In this document: positions 2,033 to 43,042 of the stretch, one piece after another
How the letters are laid out: each line of letters opens with the position of its first letter
How positions within the stretch are numbered: position 1 is the stretch's first letter
Assembly (NCBI GenBank): GCA_038396585.1
Contig: CP121691.1
Coordinates: forward strand, 186,001-250,000
Length of the DNA: 64,000 bases
DNA from: Vallitaleaceae bacterium 9-2
GTDB taxonomy: Bacteria; Bacillota; Clostridia; Lachnospirales; Vallitaleaceae
Direction: 5' to 3'
Position numbers and translations under genes: made by a program
The notes under the pieces: generated by a model
Told to the model about the DNA's origin: nothing
The model's database searches: none
Seen by the model: the letters and a program-made list of their open reading frames with translations, nothing else

Positions 2033-2902
2033 ATGGCTTCAATAAGAGAAATCAAGCGCCGTAAAGTCAGTATTACAAGTACTCAGCAGATTACAAAGGC
2101 TATGAAACTTGTTGCGACCGCAAAGCTGCAAAAAGCAAAGGCGGCAGCAGAGTCGACACGCCCATATTTTCAGACAATTCATCAAACGATTTCCTCCATT
2201 TTGGCACAAAGTGAAGGGCTTACGCATTCGATACTTGAAGGCCGAGATGGGAAAAAAACCTTATATCTTGTAATGACATCGAATCGAGGTCTAGCAGGAG
2301 GATATAACAGTAATATTGGAAAAATTGTGATGAATCATCGCGAAGAAAATGATATTCAGGTCGATGAAGAAAAAATTTATGCGATAGGTAAGCGTGGAGC
2401 AGAATACCTTCGAAAGCGTGGAGCAAACATTACAGAAACTTTTCATGATGTTCTTGAAGAGCCAACATATGATAAAGCGATGGAATTGAGTAAAATGATT
2501 TTGGAACTTTATATGAATAAGGAAATAGACCAAGTCTATATTGCTTATACACATTTCCAGTCAACATTAACTCAAGAACCAAAGCTGATGAAAGTCATAC
2601 CGGTTCAACCGGAAGAGTTTAATGATCAAGAAGAAAAGACGACATCTGTGATGAATTTTGAACCTTCACCAGAAGAGGTGTTAAAGCAGATTATGCCTAA
2701 GTATTTGAGTAGTGTTATTTATGGTGCTTTAAAAGAATCAGTAGCAAGTGAACATGGTGCGCGTATGACTGCCATGGATTCTGCAACGAATAACGCGAAT
2801 GAAATGATTGATAAATTAGCATTACAATACAATCGAGCTCGACAAGCATCTATTACTCAAGAAATTACAGAGATTGTTGGTGGAGCCGAAGCACTTCAAT
2901 AG
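2033..2902 (+). CDS. atpG: ATP synthase F1 gamma subunit
   Basis: Central rotor shaft subunit that couples rotation of the membrane c-ring to catalysis in F1. At 289 residues it is of normal length. The N-terminal coiled-coil strand carries the family pattern IREIKRRKVSITSTQQITKAMKLVATAKL. The C-terminal strand ends with ASEHGARMTAMDSATNNANEMIDKL and then NRARQASITQEITEIVGGAEAL, both highly conserved in gamma subunits. The gene sits between atpA and atpD in the usual order. Confidence 0.98.
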   Translation: MASIREIKRRKVSITSTQQITKAMKLVATAKLQKAKAAAESTRPYFQTIHQTISSILAQSEGLTHSILEGRDGKKTLYLVMTSNRGLAGGYNSNIGKIVMNHREENDIQVDEEKIYAIGKRGAEYLRKRGANITETFHDVLEEPTYDKAMELSKMILELYMNKEIDQVYIAYTHFQSTLTQEPKLMKVIPVQPEEFNDQEEKTTSVMNFEPSPEEVLKQIMPKYLSSVIYGALKESVASEHGARMTAMDSATNNANEMIDKLALQYNRARQASITQEITEIVGGAEALQ

Positions 2903-21616: not shown

Positions 21617-22159
21617 ATGAGCAAGGAAAAAATTAAAGAAGAACTAATAAGCTGGACAAAAGTCATTGTATTTGCAATGACACTGGCATATGTGATCAAC
21701 CATCTGGTGATTATCAATGCCTATGTTCCTTCACAATCCATGGAAAATACCCTGCAAGTGAAGGATCGATTAATCGCTAATCGATTGGCCTATCTTTTTA
21801 ATGAACCCAAACGTGGAGATGTTGTTATCTTTGAGTTTGATCAAGATGGGGAAGAAAAACACTACGTGAAGCGCTTAATCGGCTTGCCGGGAGACATAGT
21901 CAATATCCGAGAAGGCAATGTTTATGTCAATGACCAGCTGCTTAAGGAACCTTACTTGAAGGAAGCGATGGATAATAATGAAGATGGTAACTTTGAGGTT
22001 CCAAAAGGATATTATTTCTTCTTAGGAGACAATCGTAATAAAAGTATTGATGGGCGTTTTTGGGTAAAACCATATATTTCCAAGAAAGCTGTTTTGGGCA
22101 AAGTCGTCTTAAGTTACTATCCGAACTTTCGACTGATAACAGGACAAAAGGACAAATAA
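21617..22159 (+). CDS. lepB: signal peptidase I
   Basis: Membrane-bound serine/lysine peptidase that cleaves Sec signal peptides on the outer face of the membrane. It has 180 residues, one N-terminal span (about 12-34), then the nucleophile serine in VPSQSMENTL (about 36-45) and the lysine base in HYVKRLIGLPGD (about 76-87). The GDNRNKSIDGRFW box is near 139-151. Length and motifs match small Gram-positive SipS/LepB enzymes. It is preceded by a gggagac ribosome site. Confidence 0.95.
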   Translation: MSKEKIKEELISWTKVIVFAMTLAYVINHLVIINAYVPSQSMENTLQVKDRLIANRLAYLFNEPKRGDVVIFEFDQDGEEKHYVKRLIGLPGDIVNIREGNVYVNDQLLKEPYLKEAMDNNEDGNFEVPKGYYFFLGDNRNKSIDGRFWVKPYISKKAVLGKVVLSYYPNFRLITGQKDK

Positions 22160-24057: not shown

Positions 24058-24075
24058 ATGAAAAAAGCCTTGTGA
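24058..24075 (+). other. five-codon mini-ORF (MKKAL) with a strong ribosome site
   Basis: ATG AAA AAA GCC TTG TGA, with AAGGAG eight bases upstream. The first residues resemble those of the 25-residue peptide at 24264 (MKKVL). It may be a decayed copy or chance; its end overlaps the -35 box of the promoter at 24070-24098. Confidence 0.3.
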
Positions 24076-24098
24076 ACATGGGTAGAATATACTATAAT
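24070..24098 (+). promoter_or_regulatory. sigma-A-type promoter for the structured leader
   Basis: TTGTGA (24070-24075), a 17-base spacer and a perfect TATAAT (24093-24098). A start near 24105 would give a leader of about 160 bases before the peptide ORF. The 23971-24376 stretch has no conventional gene: it holds the mini-ORF, this promoter, the leader and the peptide ORF. Confidence 0.65.
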
Positions 24099-24205
24099 TT
24101 AGTTTATGGTATACGTTTTTTGTAAACTTTGCCATAAGCCGGCATATAATATTAGTTTACATTGAGTTTGGAATCATTTTTCGACACATAAAGATTAGAG
24201 AAGCG

Positions 24206-24262
24206 GATATAGCCTGTTTTATTAGCGGAACGAAGCAGAGAAAATATACAGGAGGCTATATC
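24206..24262 (+). promoter_or_regulatory. hairpin sequestering the peptide ORF's ribosome site
   Basis: GATATAGCCTGT (24206-24217) pairs with ACAGG, bulged AG, GCTATATC (24248-24262). The AGGAGG site (24250-24255) lies inside the 3' arm, next to the ATG at 24264. Translation of the peptide should be low while the stem is closed. The 30-base loop contains AGCGGAACGAAGC. Confidence 0.6.
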
Positions 24263-24263
24263 G

Positions 24264-24341
24264 ATGAAAAAAGTTCTAAGTATTCTTATGAGTTTAGCAA
24301 TGGCTTTATTAGCATCAGGTGCAGCACATAAAGTAATATAA
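24264..24341 (+). CDS. 25-residue hydrophobic peptide, unknown function
   Basis: Begins MKKVLSILMSLAMALLASG and ends with AAHKVI. It reads like a short membrane-inserting or signal-peptide-like peptide with two N-terminal lysines and a hydrophobic run of about 17 residues. AGGAGG lies nine bases upstream. It has no cysteine and no AgrB partner nearby, so an Agr-type signal is not supported. It lies wholly inside a long inverted repeat and just before the HD-GYP gene, so it could be a leader peptide or a small membrane partner. It is also possible that it is not translated. Confidence 0.45.
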   Translation: MKKVLSILMSLAMALLASGAAHKVI

Positions 24342-24376
24342 TATTAACATGCCGGCTTAACAAAGGAGCGTGGCTG

Positions 24377-25714
24377 ATGAAACAAAAACATAAAAAGACG
24401 ATTATTTTAAATAGTATATTAGGAATTATATATTTTATAGTAGCTTTTATTTTTTACCAGCAATTTGGTATAAGCGACTGGAAGCAACTTTTGTTTTGGA
24501 GTGTCCTTGCCATTGTTGCAGAATCCTTTGTCGTGGTATCTTCGGCGGGAACATCCACATCGGTGGGGACAGCAATCTATCTGTATGCTGCAGTTCTTGG
24601 AACACCACTGGATGTTATGCTGGTCGTAACCTTAGGGGTGCTGCTTTGCTTTCCGGAGATTAATGACAAACGACGCCATATATTGAATACTCCGCTGTAT
24701 AAAATGTTGTTTAATGTCTTTAATATATCCCTTTCCATGGGACTTGCCAGTGTGTTCTTCAAATTTTACCAAGGAGACTTTAACATTGTTGTCTATGCGC
24801 TTGTAATGTTTGTTGTTCTTGCGGCAGAAGAACTCATTAACGGGTTTATCTTATATCAATATTTTTCGATTCAGCTAGATGATATTAAGGCGCGAGATAT
24901 TTTGAAGGATATTTTAGGATCATATCTTAATTCCATTGCAATAGGTACACTCGGAATATTTTTAGTATTTGCAGACTATACTTATGGCAAATCCATTGTT
25001 ATCATATTGTTTATTCCAATTTTATTGGCTAGATATTCGTTCAAATTATATTATGATTCTCAACGAATGGCAATTGATACCATACATGCGCTTAATGAAG
25101 CACTTCATGCAAAGGATGCCTATACCGGGGGGCATACAGGGCGGGTTCAACAATATGCCATGGATATAGCTAAGGCATATAAATTGACGAGCCACCAGAT
25201 TGACACCATTGATAAGGCGGCGTTATTACATGATATTGGCAAAATCGGTATTCCGGATGATATACTCAATAAAAACGGTAAGTTAACGGCTGAAGAGTAT
25301 CGACGGATACAAGAACATGCAACAATTGGCGGGCATATTATAGGAAGTGTACATTCCTTGAGAAAGATATCGTTGATTATTATTCAGCATCATGAACGTT
25401 ATGATGGTAAGGGATATCCCAATCAGCTGTCGGGAGATCAGATAAGCATTGAAGCGGCAATCCTTATGATTGCAGACAGTTTTGATGCCATGACATCGGA
25501 TCGCCCATACCGTAAAGCATATACAAAAGAGTATGCAATTAAGGAATTAATAGAAAATGCTGGGATTCAGTTTCATCCCAAAGTGGTCAAATGCTTCGTT
25601 GAAGAAGTGCTGTCACAGCCTGGATATAATGTAGGGGACGCTACGGCGGAGATTGTTGAAATTGACCAAGTACTGGAGGCACAAAATACTTCGGAAAGGG
25701 CAAAAGAGGCATGA
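24377..25714 (+). CDS. membrane-bound HD-GYP phosphodiesterase-like protein
   Basis: The 445-residue protein has about seven N-terminal membrane spans (residues 10-220), then a cytoplasmic HD-GYP domain (about 232-420). The metal and catalytic motifs are HTGRVQQYA (about 252-260), LLHDIGKIGIPDDIL (about 280-294), and HHERYDGKGYP (about 340-350), the GYP signature. Members of the family degrade cyclic di-GMP, or in some cases other cyclic dinucleotides. The membrane part probably senses a signal. An aaaggagcg site precedes the ATG. Its end overlaps the DUF5317 gene by four bases. Activity is inferred from intact motifs. Confidence 0.92.
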   Translation: MKQKHKKTIILNSILGIIYFIVAFIFYQQFGISDWKQLLFWSVLAIVAESFVVVSSAGTSTSVGTAIYLYAAVLGTPLDVMLVVTLGVLLCFPEINDKRRHILNTPLYKMLFNVFNISLSMGLASVFFKFYQGDFNIVVYALVMFVVLAAEELINGFILYQYFSIQLDDIKARDILKDILGSYLNSIAIGTLGIFLVFADYTYGKSIVIILFIPILLARYSFKLYYDSQRMAIDTIHALNEALHAKDAYTGGHTGRVQQYAMDIAKAYKLTSHQIDTIDKAALLHDIGKIGIPDDILNKNGKLTAEEYRRIQEHATIGGHIIGSVHSLRKISLIIIQHHERYDGKGYPNQLSGDQISIEAAILMIADSFDAMTSDRPYRKAYTKEYAIKELIENAGIQFHPKVVKCFVEEVLSQPGYNVGDATAEIVEIDQVLEAQNTSERAKEA

Positions 25715-26229
25715 TATTTGAGGGGATTGTTTTAGCCGTTATTTTTGGATATCTTCGAAAAGGGCGAATAAAAAATTTGGAAAATATCACTATACAATAC
25801 TGGGGAGCATTTATTTTTGCATTTGGGATGCAAACGATAGCCTTTGTGATTGAATCGATACCGGAAGTGGGATTTTATTTATTGCATATTGGAAGTTATG
25901 TTCTTATTGTGTTTGTCTGTATAAGAAACCATCGCTTCATAGGAATGTGGCTTATGGGTATAGGAACTTTCTTAAATGGCTTGGTTATTGCACTAAATCA
26001 TGGTATGATGCCTGTTAAGCTCCCAATAGGAGCGGAACCGATTTTTGACCGAGGGCACATGCTCCTAACACATACAACGCAATTGGGATTTTTAGCCGAT
26101 ATTTTTGTTATAGAGATTCCAAAACTATCCACTCGAGTGATGAGCGTTGGAGACTTTATAATTGTTGTAGGTGTGTTTCATCTTGTACAACAGGGCATGC
26201 AAGCAAAAAGGGAAAATAATACGGTTTAA
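25711..26229 (+). CDS. DUF5317-like membrane protein
   Basis: A 172-residue protein with four or five hydrophobic spans. The stretch GLVIALNHGMMPVKLP, then DRGHMLLTHTTQLGFLADIF, and the closing segment VMSVGDFIIVVGVFHLVQ match what I know of the DUF5317 family. Function unknown. It is translationally coupled to the HD-GYP gene (ATGA overlap), which suggests a joint membrane complex or a shared signal. No further gene follows in the unit. Confidence 0.75.
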   Translation: MIFEGIVLAVIFGYLRKGRIKNLENITIQYWGAFIFAFGMQTIAFVIESIPEVGFYLLHIGSYVLIVFVCIRNHRFIGMWLMGIGTFLNGLVIALNHGMMPVKLPIGAEPIFDRGHMLLTHTTQLGFLADIFVIEIPKLSTRVMSVGDFIIVVGVFHLVQQGMQAKRENNTV

Positions 26230-42778: not shown

Positions 42779-43042
42779 TCCGTGCAGCCGGGGAGATAGC
42801 GGTGCCCTGTACCTGCAATCCGCTACAGCAGGGGTGATGCTAAACTGAGACTTTCATTTTGTAAGGCTGCCTCGTAAAAGTGGTGTTGACGGTTGGGTCT
42901 TACGCAACAGGAATCTGTGAACCGTGTCAGGTCTTGACGGAAGCAGCACTAAGCAGAACCTCCTGTGTGCCGTAAGGGTGCCTGATCAGAGCTAACTATA
43001 TGAGTAACGCTTATGGGTGATTGGCGAAGGGCAGCGCACGGA
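42779..43042 (+). ncRNA. ffs: signal recognition particle RNA, large Bacillus/Clostridium type
   Basis: About 264 bases, close to the ~270-base Bacillus scRNA. The ends pair: TCCGTGC (42779-42785) with GCACGGA (43036-43042). The 5' domain has the Alu-type core (GGGGAGATAGCGGTGCCCTG, then CCTGCAATCCGCTACAGCAGGG). The S domain has GTCAGGTC and GGAAGCAGCA, the conserved Ffh-binding loop of helix 8, with GTGTTGACG and GGGTGCCTGATCAGAGCTAAC as in Bacillus. The RNA scaffolds Ffh for co-translational membrane targeting. The position before dnaX-ybaB-recR is the same as in B. subtilis. Confidence 0.95.

Follow-up and report, generated by a model that had tools for sequence, protein, structure and literature searches.

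What does the leader of an HD-GYP gene control when a long-range inverted repeat within it encloses a short open reading frame? The window (the whole stretch of DNA analysed, 64,000 nucleotides from Vallitaleaceae bacterium 9-2) presents this question ahead of an HD-GYP/DUF5317 gene pair, with the following layout.

24070-24098, plus strand: promoter-like site TTGTGA-17-TATAAT (consensus scan, 10/12), a putative promoter
24104-24137, plus strand: 5' hairpin TTATGG/CCATAA, read directly, with a 3-nt overlap with the outer arm
24135-24154, plus strand: 5' arm of the outer stem, read directly; conserved half 24135-24145
24264-24341, plus strand: micropeptide MKKVLSILMSLAMALLASGAAHKVI, 25 aa, read directly, with counterparts in related loci
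24339-24359, plus strand: 3' arm of the outer stem, read directly; conserved half 24349-24359; starts with the peptide stop codon
24377-25714, plus strand: HD-GYP protein, 445 aa (PF13487, E 9.6e-41), with an N-terminal membrane domain and a C-terminal HD-GYP domain
25711-26229, plus strand: DUF5317 membrane protein (PF17248, E 7.3e-25), its start overlapping the HD-GYP stop

The outer stem comprises 19 bp and encloses 184 nt (24155-24338). Its outer half, TAAGCCGGCAT (24135-24145), pairs with 24349-24359 over 11 bp with zero mismatches, its inner half, TAATATTA (24147-24154), pairs with 24339-24346 over 8 bp, and an A / AC internal loop lies between them. The 3' arm opens with the peptide stop codon TAA (24339-24341), and 3 nt separate the arm's end from the HD-GYP ribosome site AAGGAG (24363-24368). 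Two alternative pairings are also present, 24104-24109 with 24132-24137 (6 bp) and 24121-24128 with 24154-24161 (8 bp). The original prediction had named the repeat, the enclosed reading frame, the stop codon in the 3' arm and these alternative pairings, and direct reading finds all of them in place. Its proposal of a switch working through the alternative 5' pairings is unsupported: partial counterparts were judged by eye in the same-genus genome G001 (L060), a non-systematic inspection by eye saw none outside the window genome and G001, and the pairings look local to the window genus.

A scan of the leader region for promoter-like sites gave four, against 2.0 (sd 1.4) in shuffles, which is weak evidence alone; two of the four are weak minus-strand sites at 9/12. 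The site at 24070-24098 is probably the leader's own promoter in the window genus. The folding energy of the leader, −66.3 kcal/mol (z −2.34, with 4 of 200 shuffles equally good), is modestly unusual by itself, and relatives were therefore compared.

A search of 59 related genomes, the window's included, with the HD-GYP protein yielded 16 genomes whose match starts no later than residue 37 and reaches the C-terminal part, and a related leader lies upstream in all 16. These leaders share two UAGCGRA-type boxes, a small hairpin, the motif GGCTAT at the start region of an ORF of 25-30 aa, and the outer arms. A first covariance model, R1, was built from the 16 sequences (two families); its pairing was one column off, which made its searches effectively sequence-driven. 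In the order, R1 matched 17 of 392 genomes, these being the 16 and G085, another genome of the same species as the window, and in the class 41 of 391 at E ≤ 0.1. A further set of loci was picked through a neighbouring LeuA-domain protein rather than through the RNA; among the best 80 of 540 such LeuA-gene loci, R1 matched 58 at E ≤ 0.01 by hand count, three of the 80 being from training genomes. A second model, R2, carries the corrected pairing and was built from 85 R1 matches, including many class genomes and 39 of the 80 LeuA-gene loci. The R2 counts of 42 of 391 class genomes at E ≤ 0.01 (38 of the 42 also R1-positive) and, in the best 80 of 540 LeuA-gene loci, of 63 at E ≤ 0.01 and 72 at E ≤ 1 at the expected place hold partly by construction because of this training overlap, which does not apply to the R1 counts. 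In the phylum R2 matched 37 of 398 genomes at E ≤ 0.01, with the window genome (G000) and G453 as known training genomes.

The class matches made by R1 alone (G460, G484 and G746) are absent from the R2 results and were set aside as probably false. Among the LeuA-gene loci, L120 has a weak R2 match after its second LeuA-domain gene, the layout was recognised by eye only in L119, L131, L146 and L161, and L128 ends at the LeuA-domain gene. Carriers include Thermotalea metallivorans, Geosporobacter, Caloranaerobacter azorensis, Alkaliphilus, Caldicoprobacter and Caproiciproducens, as well as Symbiobacterium, recognised by eye. Reading 28 of the 37 phylum matches, with G000 and G453 excluded, revealed a peptide ORF after the core in all 28 (two cut by contig ends), a LeuA-domain motif upstream in 24 and an HD motif downstream in 22. 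The six loci without an HD motif are L228, L229 and L231, which lie on short stretches, and L220, L227 and L233. A mobile element or MITE was rejected on copy number, since R1 finds one match in the window genome and R2 one per positive class or phylum genome, except for a second weak match in G625.

The outer stem was examined at 46 loci among 57 distinct R1 matches from the order and class, and 45 were tested, L085 ending too early. Each locus was scored by its strongest ungapped helix joining the sequence 5' of the core to the sequence 3' of the peptide. A locus's own arms gave a mean of 34.7 and a minimum of 26, with 43 of 45 loci above 26.5, the 99th percentile of shuffled 3' sides (mean 17.8, maximum 32.5). 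Swapped 3' sides from other loci, clade-mates included, gave a mean of 19.6, a 95th percentile of 30.5 and a maximum of 51.5; the window's own ungapped score is 28. The letters of the arms vary by clade and their pairing is retained, as in AAGCCAAAACATC/GATGTTTTGGCTT, GACCGGCAT/ATGCCGGTC, AACCCGAAT/ATTCGGGTT and others. The G+C-rich 11-bp half, together with the core near the peptide ribosome site, is what is conserved between relatives.

The LeuA-gene loci provided the second set, which shares genomes with the first and is not independent of it. Testing covered 66 of the 72 loci whose R2 match lies where expected; five of the other six are on short contigs, and in L132 the ORF is present and was missed. 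In these 66 tested of the best 80 of 540, own arms scored a median of 34.0 (minimum 21.5) against 18.0 for swapped arms, and 54 own pairs exceeded the shuffle 99th percentile, against 5.5% of swapped pairs. Judged by comparison of sequences, a chance origin of the repeat is excluded. The covariation that the original prediction looked for in homologous leaders is present, both in these stems (43/45 and 54/66) and in the P1 and P2 pairs described below.

The place of the 3' arm bears on two ideas about its role. Its start ranges from −2 to 38 nt from the peptide stop codon in the 45-locus set, and tightly timed coupling is disfavoured because of this variation. Transcription attenuation, in which the outer stem would be a terminator unless the peptide is translated, draws on the T-run found after the 3' arm in L067, L075 and L077. 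The window leader, however, has no T-run after the arm, a scan of the region gave 0 terminator-like sites, and the loop measures about 180 nt, making attenuation highly improbable.

The long arm pair had been put forward as the structure of this leader. It is real and it covaries, but a conserved core of about 80 nt between the arms was missing from that account. Its parts in the window are as follows.

24187-24267, plus strand: conserved RNA core, about 80 nt (R2 match E 6.2e-13, the sequence being among R2's training set)
24195-24206, plus strand: Box 1, TTAGAGAAGCGG (consensus UAGCGRAGCGR; alignments A1 and A5)
24206-24214, plus strand: 5' strand of P1, GATATAGCC (pairing tested in 84 distinct rows)
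24215-24237, plus strand: P2 hairpin TGTTT/AAGCA, with the loop box TTAGCGGA at 24222-24229
24236-24240, plus strand: conserved CAGAG, invariant among the 16 sequences of A1
24254-24262, plus strand: 3' strand of P1, GGCTATATC, covering the SD's end and the spacer before the peptide start codon

The plan of the core is thus a pair of boxes (AGCGRAGCG and UAGCGRA), the hairpin P2, in which 24215-24219 pair with 24233-24237, and the stem P1, in which 24206-24214 pair with 24254-24262 at the SD and start region of the peptide. The peptide SD AGGAGG occupies 24250-24255, and P1 overlaps only its 3' part. The outer stem was considered as a structure alternative to P1, and by eye no overlap between the two is seen. 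P1 mostly reads ATATAGCC/GGCTATAT, with AGTTTGCC/GGCAAACT-like and other variants. In the window's own genome the pattern CAGAG-N13-GGAGGCTAT has 16 two-mismatch matches and is uninformative, the spacing in the window being 10.

These pairs were tested in an alignment of 85 sequences, 84 of them distinct. Having been made with R1, in which the pairing is shifted by one column, the alignment is not biased toward the P1/P2 pairing under test. Over P1 and P2 together, 90.4% of cells are paired; shuffles give 82.2% and slid registers no more than 47.0%. Covariation is 0.250, compared with 0.134 ± 0.009 for the shuffles and 0.090 at most for the slid registers. Cells changed on both sides number 85 against 25.2 in shuffles, and 70 of the 85 fall in P2. 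In P1, 91.6% of cells are paired and both-side change occurs in 5 of 8 pairs (15 cells); in P2 the corresponding figures are 88.5% and 3 of 5 pairs (70 cells). The number of pairs changed on both sides, 8, is not above slid registers (up to 10), and the number of further pair types, 24, is unremarkable: shuffles give 21.8 and come as high in 56 of 500 cases, and slid registers go up to 24. In the G+C-rich 'type B' relatives the P1 pairing (P1a/P1b), tested in 36 of 38 sequences with L215 and L119 left out, did not stand out, with own means of 11.3 against 10.5 swapped and 11.1 against 10.8. TRAP-like (U/G)AG repeats were considered and dropped, several of them lying in the covarying P2 strand and not being conserved.

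The leader holds a covarying structured RNA without an overlapping Rfam match. At gathering cut-offs Rfam 15 gives a single match in the window, a bacterial large SRP RNA at 42780-43041 on the plus strand (177 bits), and none over the leader element; no match overlaps the element in nine related loci at E ≤ 10 or in ten further loci at E ≤ 1. The earlier failure to match the leader to a known riboswitch class agrees with this outcome. In L110 a sub-threshold match to Clostridiales-2 RNA (2714-2796, plus strand; 42.4 bits against a cut-off of 58.6) precedes the LeuA-domain gene. The c-di-GMP riboswitches GEMM-I and c-di-GMP-II accompany cyclic-dinucleotide metabolism in Clostridia. Unlike them, the leader here has a micropeptide cistron as its nearest target, and no match of the Rfam c-di-GMP riboswitch models overlaps the element in the window or the 19 loci. 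A literature search, with subscription papers and supplementary tables outside its reach, found no paper describing the leader element among those listed; the element is filed as a putative cis-regulatory RNA with an unusual target, the micropeptide cistron.

Could the core be a riboswitch, its boxes forming a small-molecule aptamer and P1 its expression platform? The near-invariant unpaired boxes, the short covarying helices, the position of P1 over the SD region, the normally single copy per genome and the fixed gene context would all fit. Many riboswitch classes serve several gene contexts, however, and only one is seen here; no Rfam match overlaps the element either. One family, the Downstream-peptide motif (RF01704), was later named the glutamine-II riboswitch. 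This motif, an RNA conserved within the 5' UTR ahead of peptide ORFs 17 to 100 aa long, provides a precedent for a candidate riboswitch on small peptides (PMC2864571). It resembles the present leader in placing a conserved RNA ahead of a short conserved peptide ORF, and differs in that the passages on it describe neither a long-range outer stem nor an HD-GYP partner (PMC2864571). The motif is also cyanobacterial, and its Rfam model is unmatched at the element. A riboswitch is thus a possible reading, and a tentative one.

The enclosed peptide is a conserved product under purifying selection, as judged from 17 close pairs of equal length (one of 18 was skipped for unequal length), in which pS is 0.390, pN 0.086 and pN/pS 0.22. 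On this evidence the reading frame is more than a coupling uORF, and the original prediction needs amending on that point. Across loci the peptides measure about 20-34 aa and are built of a basic start, some 15 hydrophobic residues and a short tail, often with (A/S)GGA-x-x-x-W; W falls within the last six residues in 50 of 66 peptides, and the window peptide has the tail AAHKVI with no W. Pfam and NCBIfam contain no family above cut-off for the peptide: the window's was searched at E ≤ 0.01 and E ≤ 0.1, respectively, and, with autoinducer families in mind, five relatives' peptides in NCBIfam (E ≤ 10) and three in Pfam (E ≤ 1). All family matches lie below cut-off, among them AimP_fam (E 0.15) and LPAM_1 (E 0.0085). 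An arrest peptide like SecM was rejected: the chains have at most 34 residues, the window's 25, and are too short for pulling outside the ribosome, whose tunnel holds about 30-40 residues. About 2 kb upstream in the window, and also in G001, lies a signal peptidase I-like gene (by eye; 21617-22159, plus strand), which would be of interest if the peptide is cleaved.

Two readings fit the peptide: a single TM helix, or a signal peptide that yields a product of 4-6 residues. The second reading leads to an exported pheromone, in which signal peptidase would cut after (A/S)GGA and free a peptide of 4-6 residues to be sensed by the membrane domain of the HD-GYP protein. By eye, many peptides have Sec-like n, h and c regions and a short tail past a possible cleavage site. 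Yet the tail W tends to persist across the phylum (50/66) rather than vary freely, one TM helix is an equally good reading, and the NCBIfam autoinducer families give no match at or above cut-off. A pheromone is accordingly unlikely.

Small hydrophobic peptides behind a partly paired SD also recall type I toxins, the mRNAs of which silence a hydrophobic toxin by SD sequestration and 5'-3' long-distance pairing. The aapA mRNAs are described with a small ORF, a hidden SD and ends paired at long distance, an architecture like the present one, and the aapA/IsoA and hok systems share with it the SD sequestration and long-distance pairing around a small ORF (PMC6733600). The leader here, unlike these systems, lies inside a conserved, operon-like cluster in normally one copy, covaries across orders and is tied by deep synteny to one enzyme. 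No antitoxin RNA or antisense gene was found at the leader by the promoter-like scan, which gave only the weak minus-strand sites. A toxin is very improbable, and by the tests made the element is not shown to belong to the Downstream-peptide class or to the aapA/hok mRNAs.

The protein that follows the peptide is a predicted HD-GYP phosphodiesterase with its motifs intact, the HD, HH and GYP columns being invariant in 22 sequences. In its model (pLDDT 84.0) the C-terminal domain aligns with 4mcw at Z 24.9 (rmsd 2.5 over 188). The N-terminal half aligns with S components at Z 10.6-14.0, the highest being 4m5b (Z 14.0, rmsd 3.4 over 186), and with RibU 5kbw at Z 13.3 (rmsd 3.0 over 162), a helical Z of about 13 being one that a common arrangement can also give; Foldseek pairs the protein with TmRibU at E 0.12 and TMt 0.73. 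The sensor half is ECF-S-like in its predicted fold. KdpF, CydX and CbiN are small membrane subunits of larger membrane proteins. The likeness to them consists in one short hydrophobic peptide per membrane partner, with a partner that is S-component-like here as in CbiM/NikM; the micropeptide here differs in having no family match above cut-off, an HD-GYP enzyme as partner, and an RNA element.

Two kinds of gene flank the element. An HD-GYP-type ORF follows it in 45 of 46 loci by eye (L085 ends), with DUF5317 next in most loci, and a gene for a LeuA-domain protein of about 209 aa precedes it in 43 of 46. Half of the model of this protein (pLDDT 88.8) resembles the regulatory domain of LeuA/citramalate synthase (3f6h, Z 10.7, rmsd 3.3 over 118; Foldseek 3hps E 1.8e-5 and 3f6g E 1.3e-4), and the (beta-beta-beta-alpha)2 regulatory fold of the LeuA type is found in it. 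Its N-terminal half is matched about equally, at Z 8-9.5, by the C-terminal domains of CDF transporters and by acyl-CoA synthetase domains (VIA-align). No Pfam match at cut-off was found for it in three relatives, and no curated family at cut-off covers parts of this protein or the N-terminal half of the HD-GYP protein.

This neighbour raises the prospect of a protein-bound leader, in which a cassette protein or global regulator, such as a LeuA-domain autoregulator or a CsrA-like protein, would bind the GCGRA/GGA boxes. The boxes are repeated, and the gene upstream in 43 of 46 loci encodes a half-model like an amino-acid-binding regulatory domain. CsrA prefers GGA, however, and GGA is not strictly retained, the box variants GCGAA and GCGTA occurring as well. 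Moreover, G000, G001 and G085 have no LeuA-domain gene before the element, which stays by the HD-GYP gene in the window genome though the LeuA-domain gene (C1:175088-175708, L183) lies 34.5 kb off. Protein binding of this kind is doubtful.

In G000 the LeuA-domain gene is followed, by eye, by a gene like that after DUF5317 in the same-genus genome G002. Because the LeuA-domain gene lies apart, beside this G002-like neighbour of DUF5317, the RNA seems to have moved in the window genus as a single block with the genes for the peptide, HD-GYP and DUF5317. In place of the LeuA-domain gene, the leader is preceded there by the promoter-like site. L183 also adjoins small-heat-shock-like and histidine-kinase-like genes (by eye). 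The best reading of the element's partner would be the HD-GYP gene rather than the LeuA-domain gene, because the element persists without the latter and is not found in L145 and L156, which have neither element nor HD-GYP gene in the 3 kb downstream of the LeuA-domain gene.

To follow the partnership, 331 genomes of the class were sampled; an HD-GYP match counted as full-length at a query start ≤ 9 and an end ≥ 400, with at most five candidates scored per genome. A full-length HD-GYP of this type occurs in 42 sample genomes, and the micropeptide lies upstream in 42 of 42. Of these genomes 35 are R2-positive, with the peptide read in every one; four (L246-L249) carry peptide, arms and a diverged core, the core at R2 E values between 0.0012 and 0.15 in a small search, one (L245) retains arms and peptide and is missing the boxed core, and two have the peptide without RNA. 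L245 has the appearance of a locus that lost its RNA core naturally. The RNA-less version, seen about 300 nt upstream of the HD-GYP match in L250, L251 and L253, runs from a 31-32 aa peptide ending in KWG through a terminator-like hairpin to a more distant full-length HD-GYP; G521 carries both versions, L253 being its second full-length copy. The RNA is dispensable for the peptide/HD-GYP pair, because L245 lacks the core and L250, L251 and L253 lack the RNA. The expectation that close relatives keep the repeat with the gene pair holds in all 45 loci but not in G615 and G680, where a more distant HD-GYP copy has the peptide and no RNA. Outside the 42, R2-positive genomes are G472 (element at a contig end) and G467 (E 0.0078); G731, G739, G748, G755 and G756 are R2-positive and not in the HD-GYP sample table. 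The G467 match (L252, 996-1078) is weak, with E 6.2e-5 in a small search.

The leading explanation, held at a probability of about 0.6, is that a cis-acting RNA gates translation of the micropeptide and that this peptide partners an ECF-S-like HD-GYP phosphodiesterase. The long-range outer stem closes the micropeptide cistron and may insulate it both from the gene upstream and from the ribosome site of the HD-GYP gene, which sits a few to some tens of nucleotides downstream of the stem. P1 would hide the ribosome site of the peptide until a factor (metabolite, protein or RNA) binding the boxed core opens it or locks it, and the state of P1 would set peptide output. Ribosomes reaching the peptide stop would possibly couple the two cistrons. 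The peptide may then tune cyclic-dinucleotide breakdown, acting on the HD-GYP/DUF5317 complex either as its small membrane partner or as a short signal that is exported. Control of a cyclic-dinucleotide enzyme, as first proposed for this leader, survives in the tie of the RNA to HD-GYP/DUF5317, but the core covers the ribosome site of the peptide and the first target would be the micropeptide.

A conserved RNA and peptide that recur in many Firmicutes beside one kind of membrane-bound HD-GYP enzyme suggest an undescribed signalling module. The wider claim, that this is a phylum-wide new class of riboregulator in which an aptamer-like RNA gates a micropeptide dedicated, as ligand or as subunit, to an HD-GYP receptor of S-component fold, is plausible and falls somewhat short of an even chance. 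The comparison supplies a testable RNA class outside the Rfam 15 matches, with two covariance models, and an unannotated micropeptide family under purifying selection together with the one enzyme that it accompanies. If the wider claim is true, membrane sensing, a tiny peptide and cyclic-dinucleotide breakdown would form one RNA-controlled system, placed in several lineages beside hpf, secA and prfB; its confirmation would give cyclic-dinucleotide signalling in Clostridia a peptide-controlled receptor, with an RNA timing peptide synthesis.

That recurrent position near hpf-like and secA genes in several lineages links the module to genes of ribosome hibernation and protein export. The secA gene follows DUF5317 in 7 of 20 flanked class loci (L185, L189, L194, L196, L197, L200 and L201), with short ORFs between the two in L200. 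By eye, an hpf-like ORF precedes the cassette in five of these seven and a prfB-like gene follows secA in six, the L200 listing ending at secA. A secA motif also occurs in the flank of 10 among the best 80 of 540 LeuA-gene loci, some from the same genomes. The place beside hpf-like and secA/prfB-like genes is possibly ancestral. In the window genome the element lies at 0.21 Mb and secA-like matches at 0.78 and 1.70 Mb.
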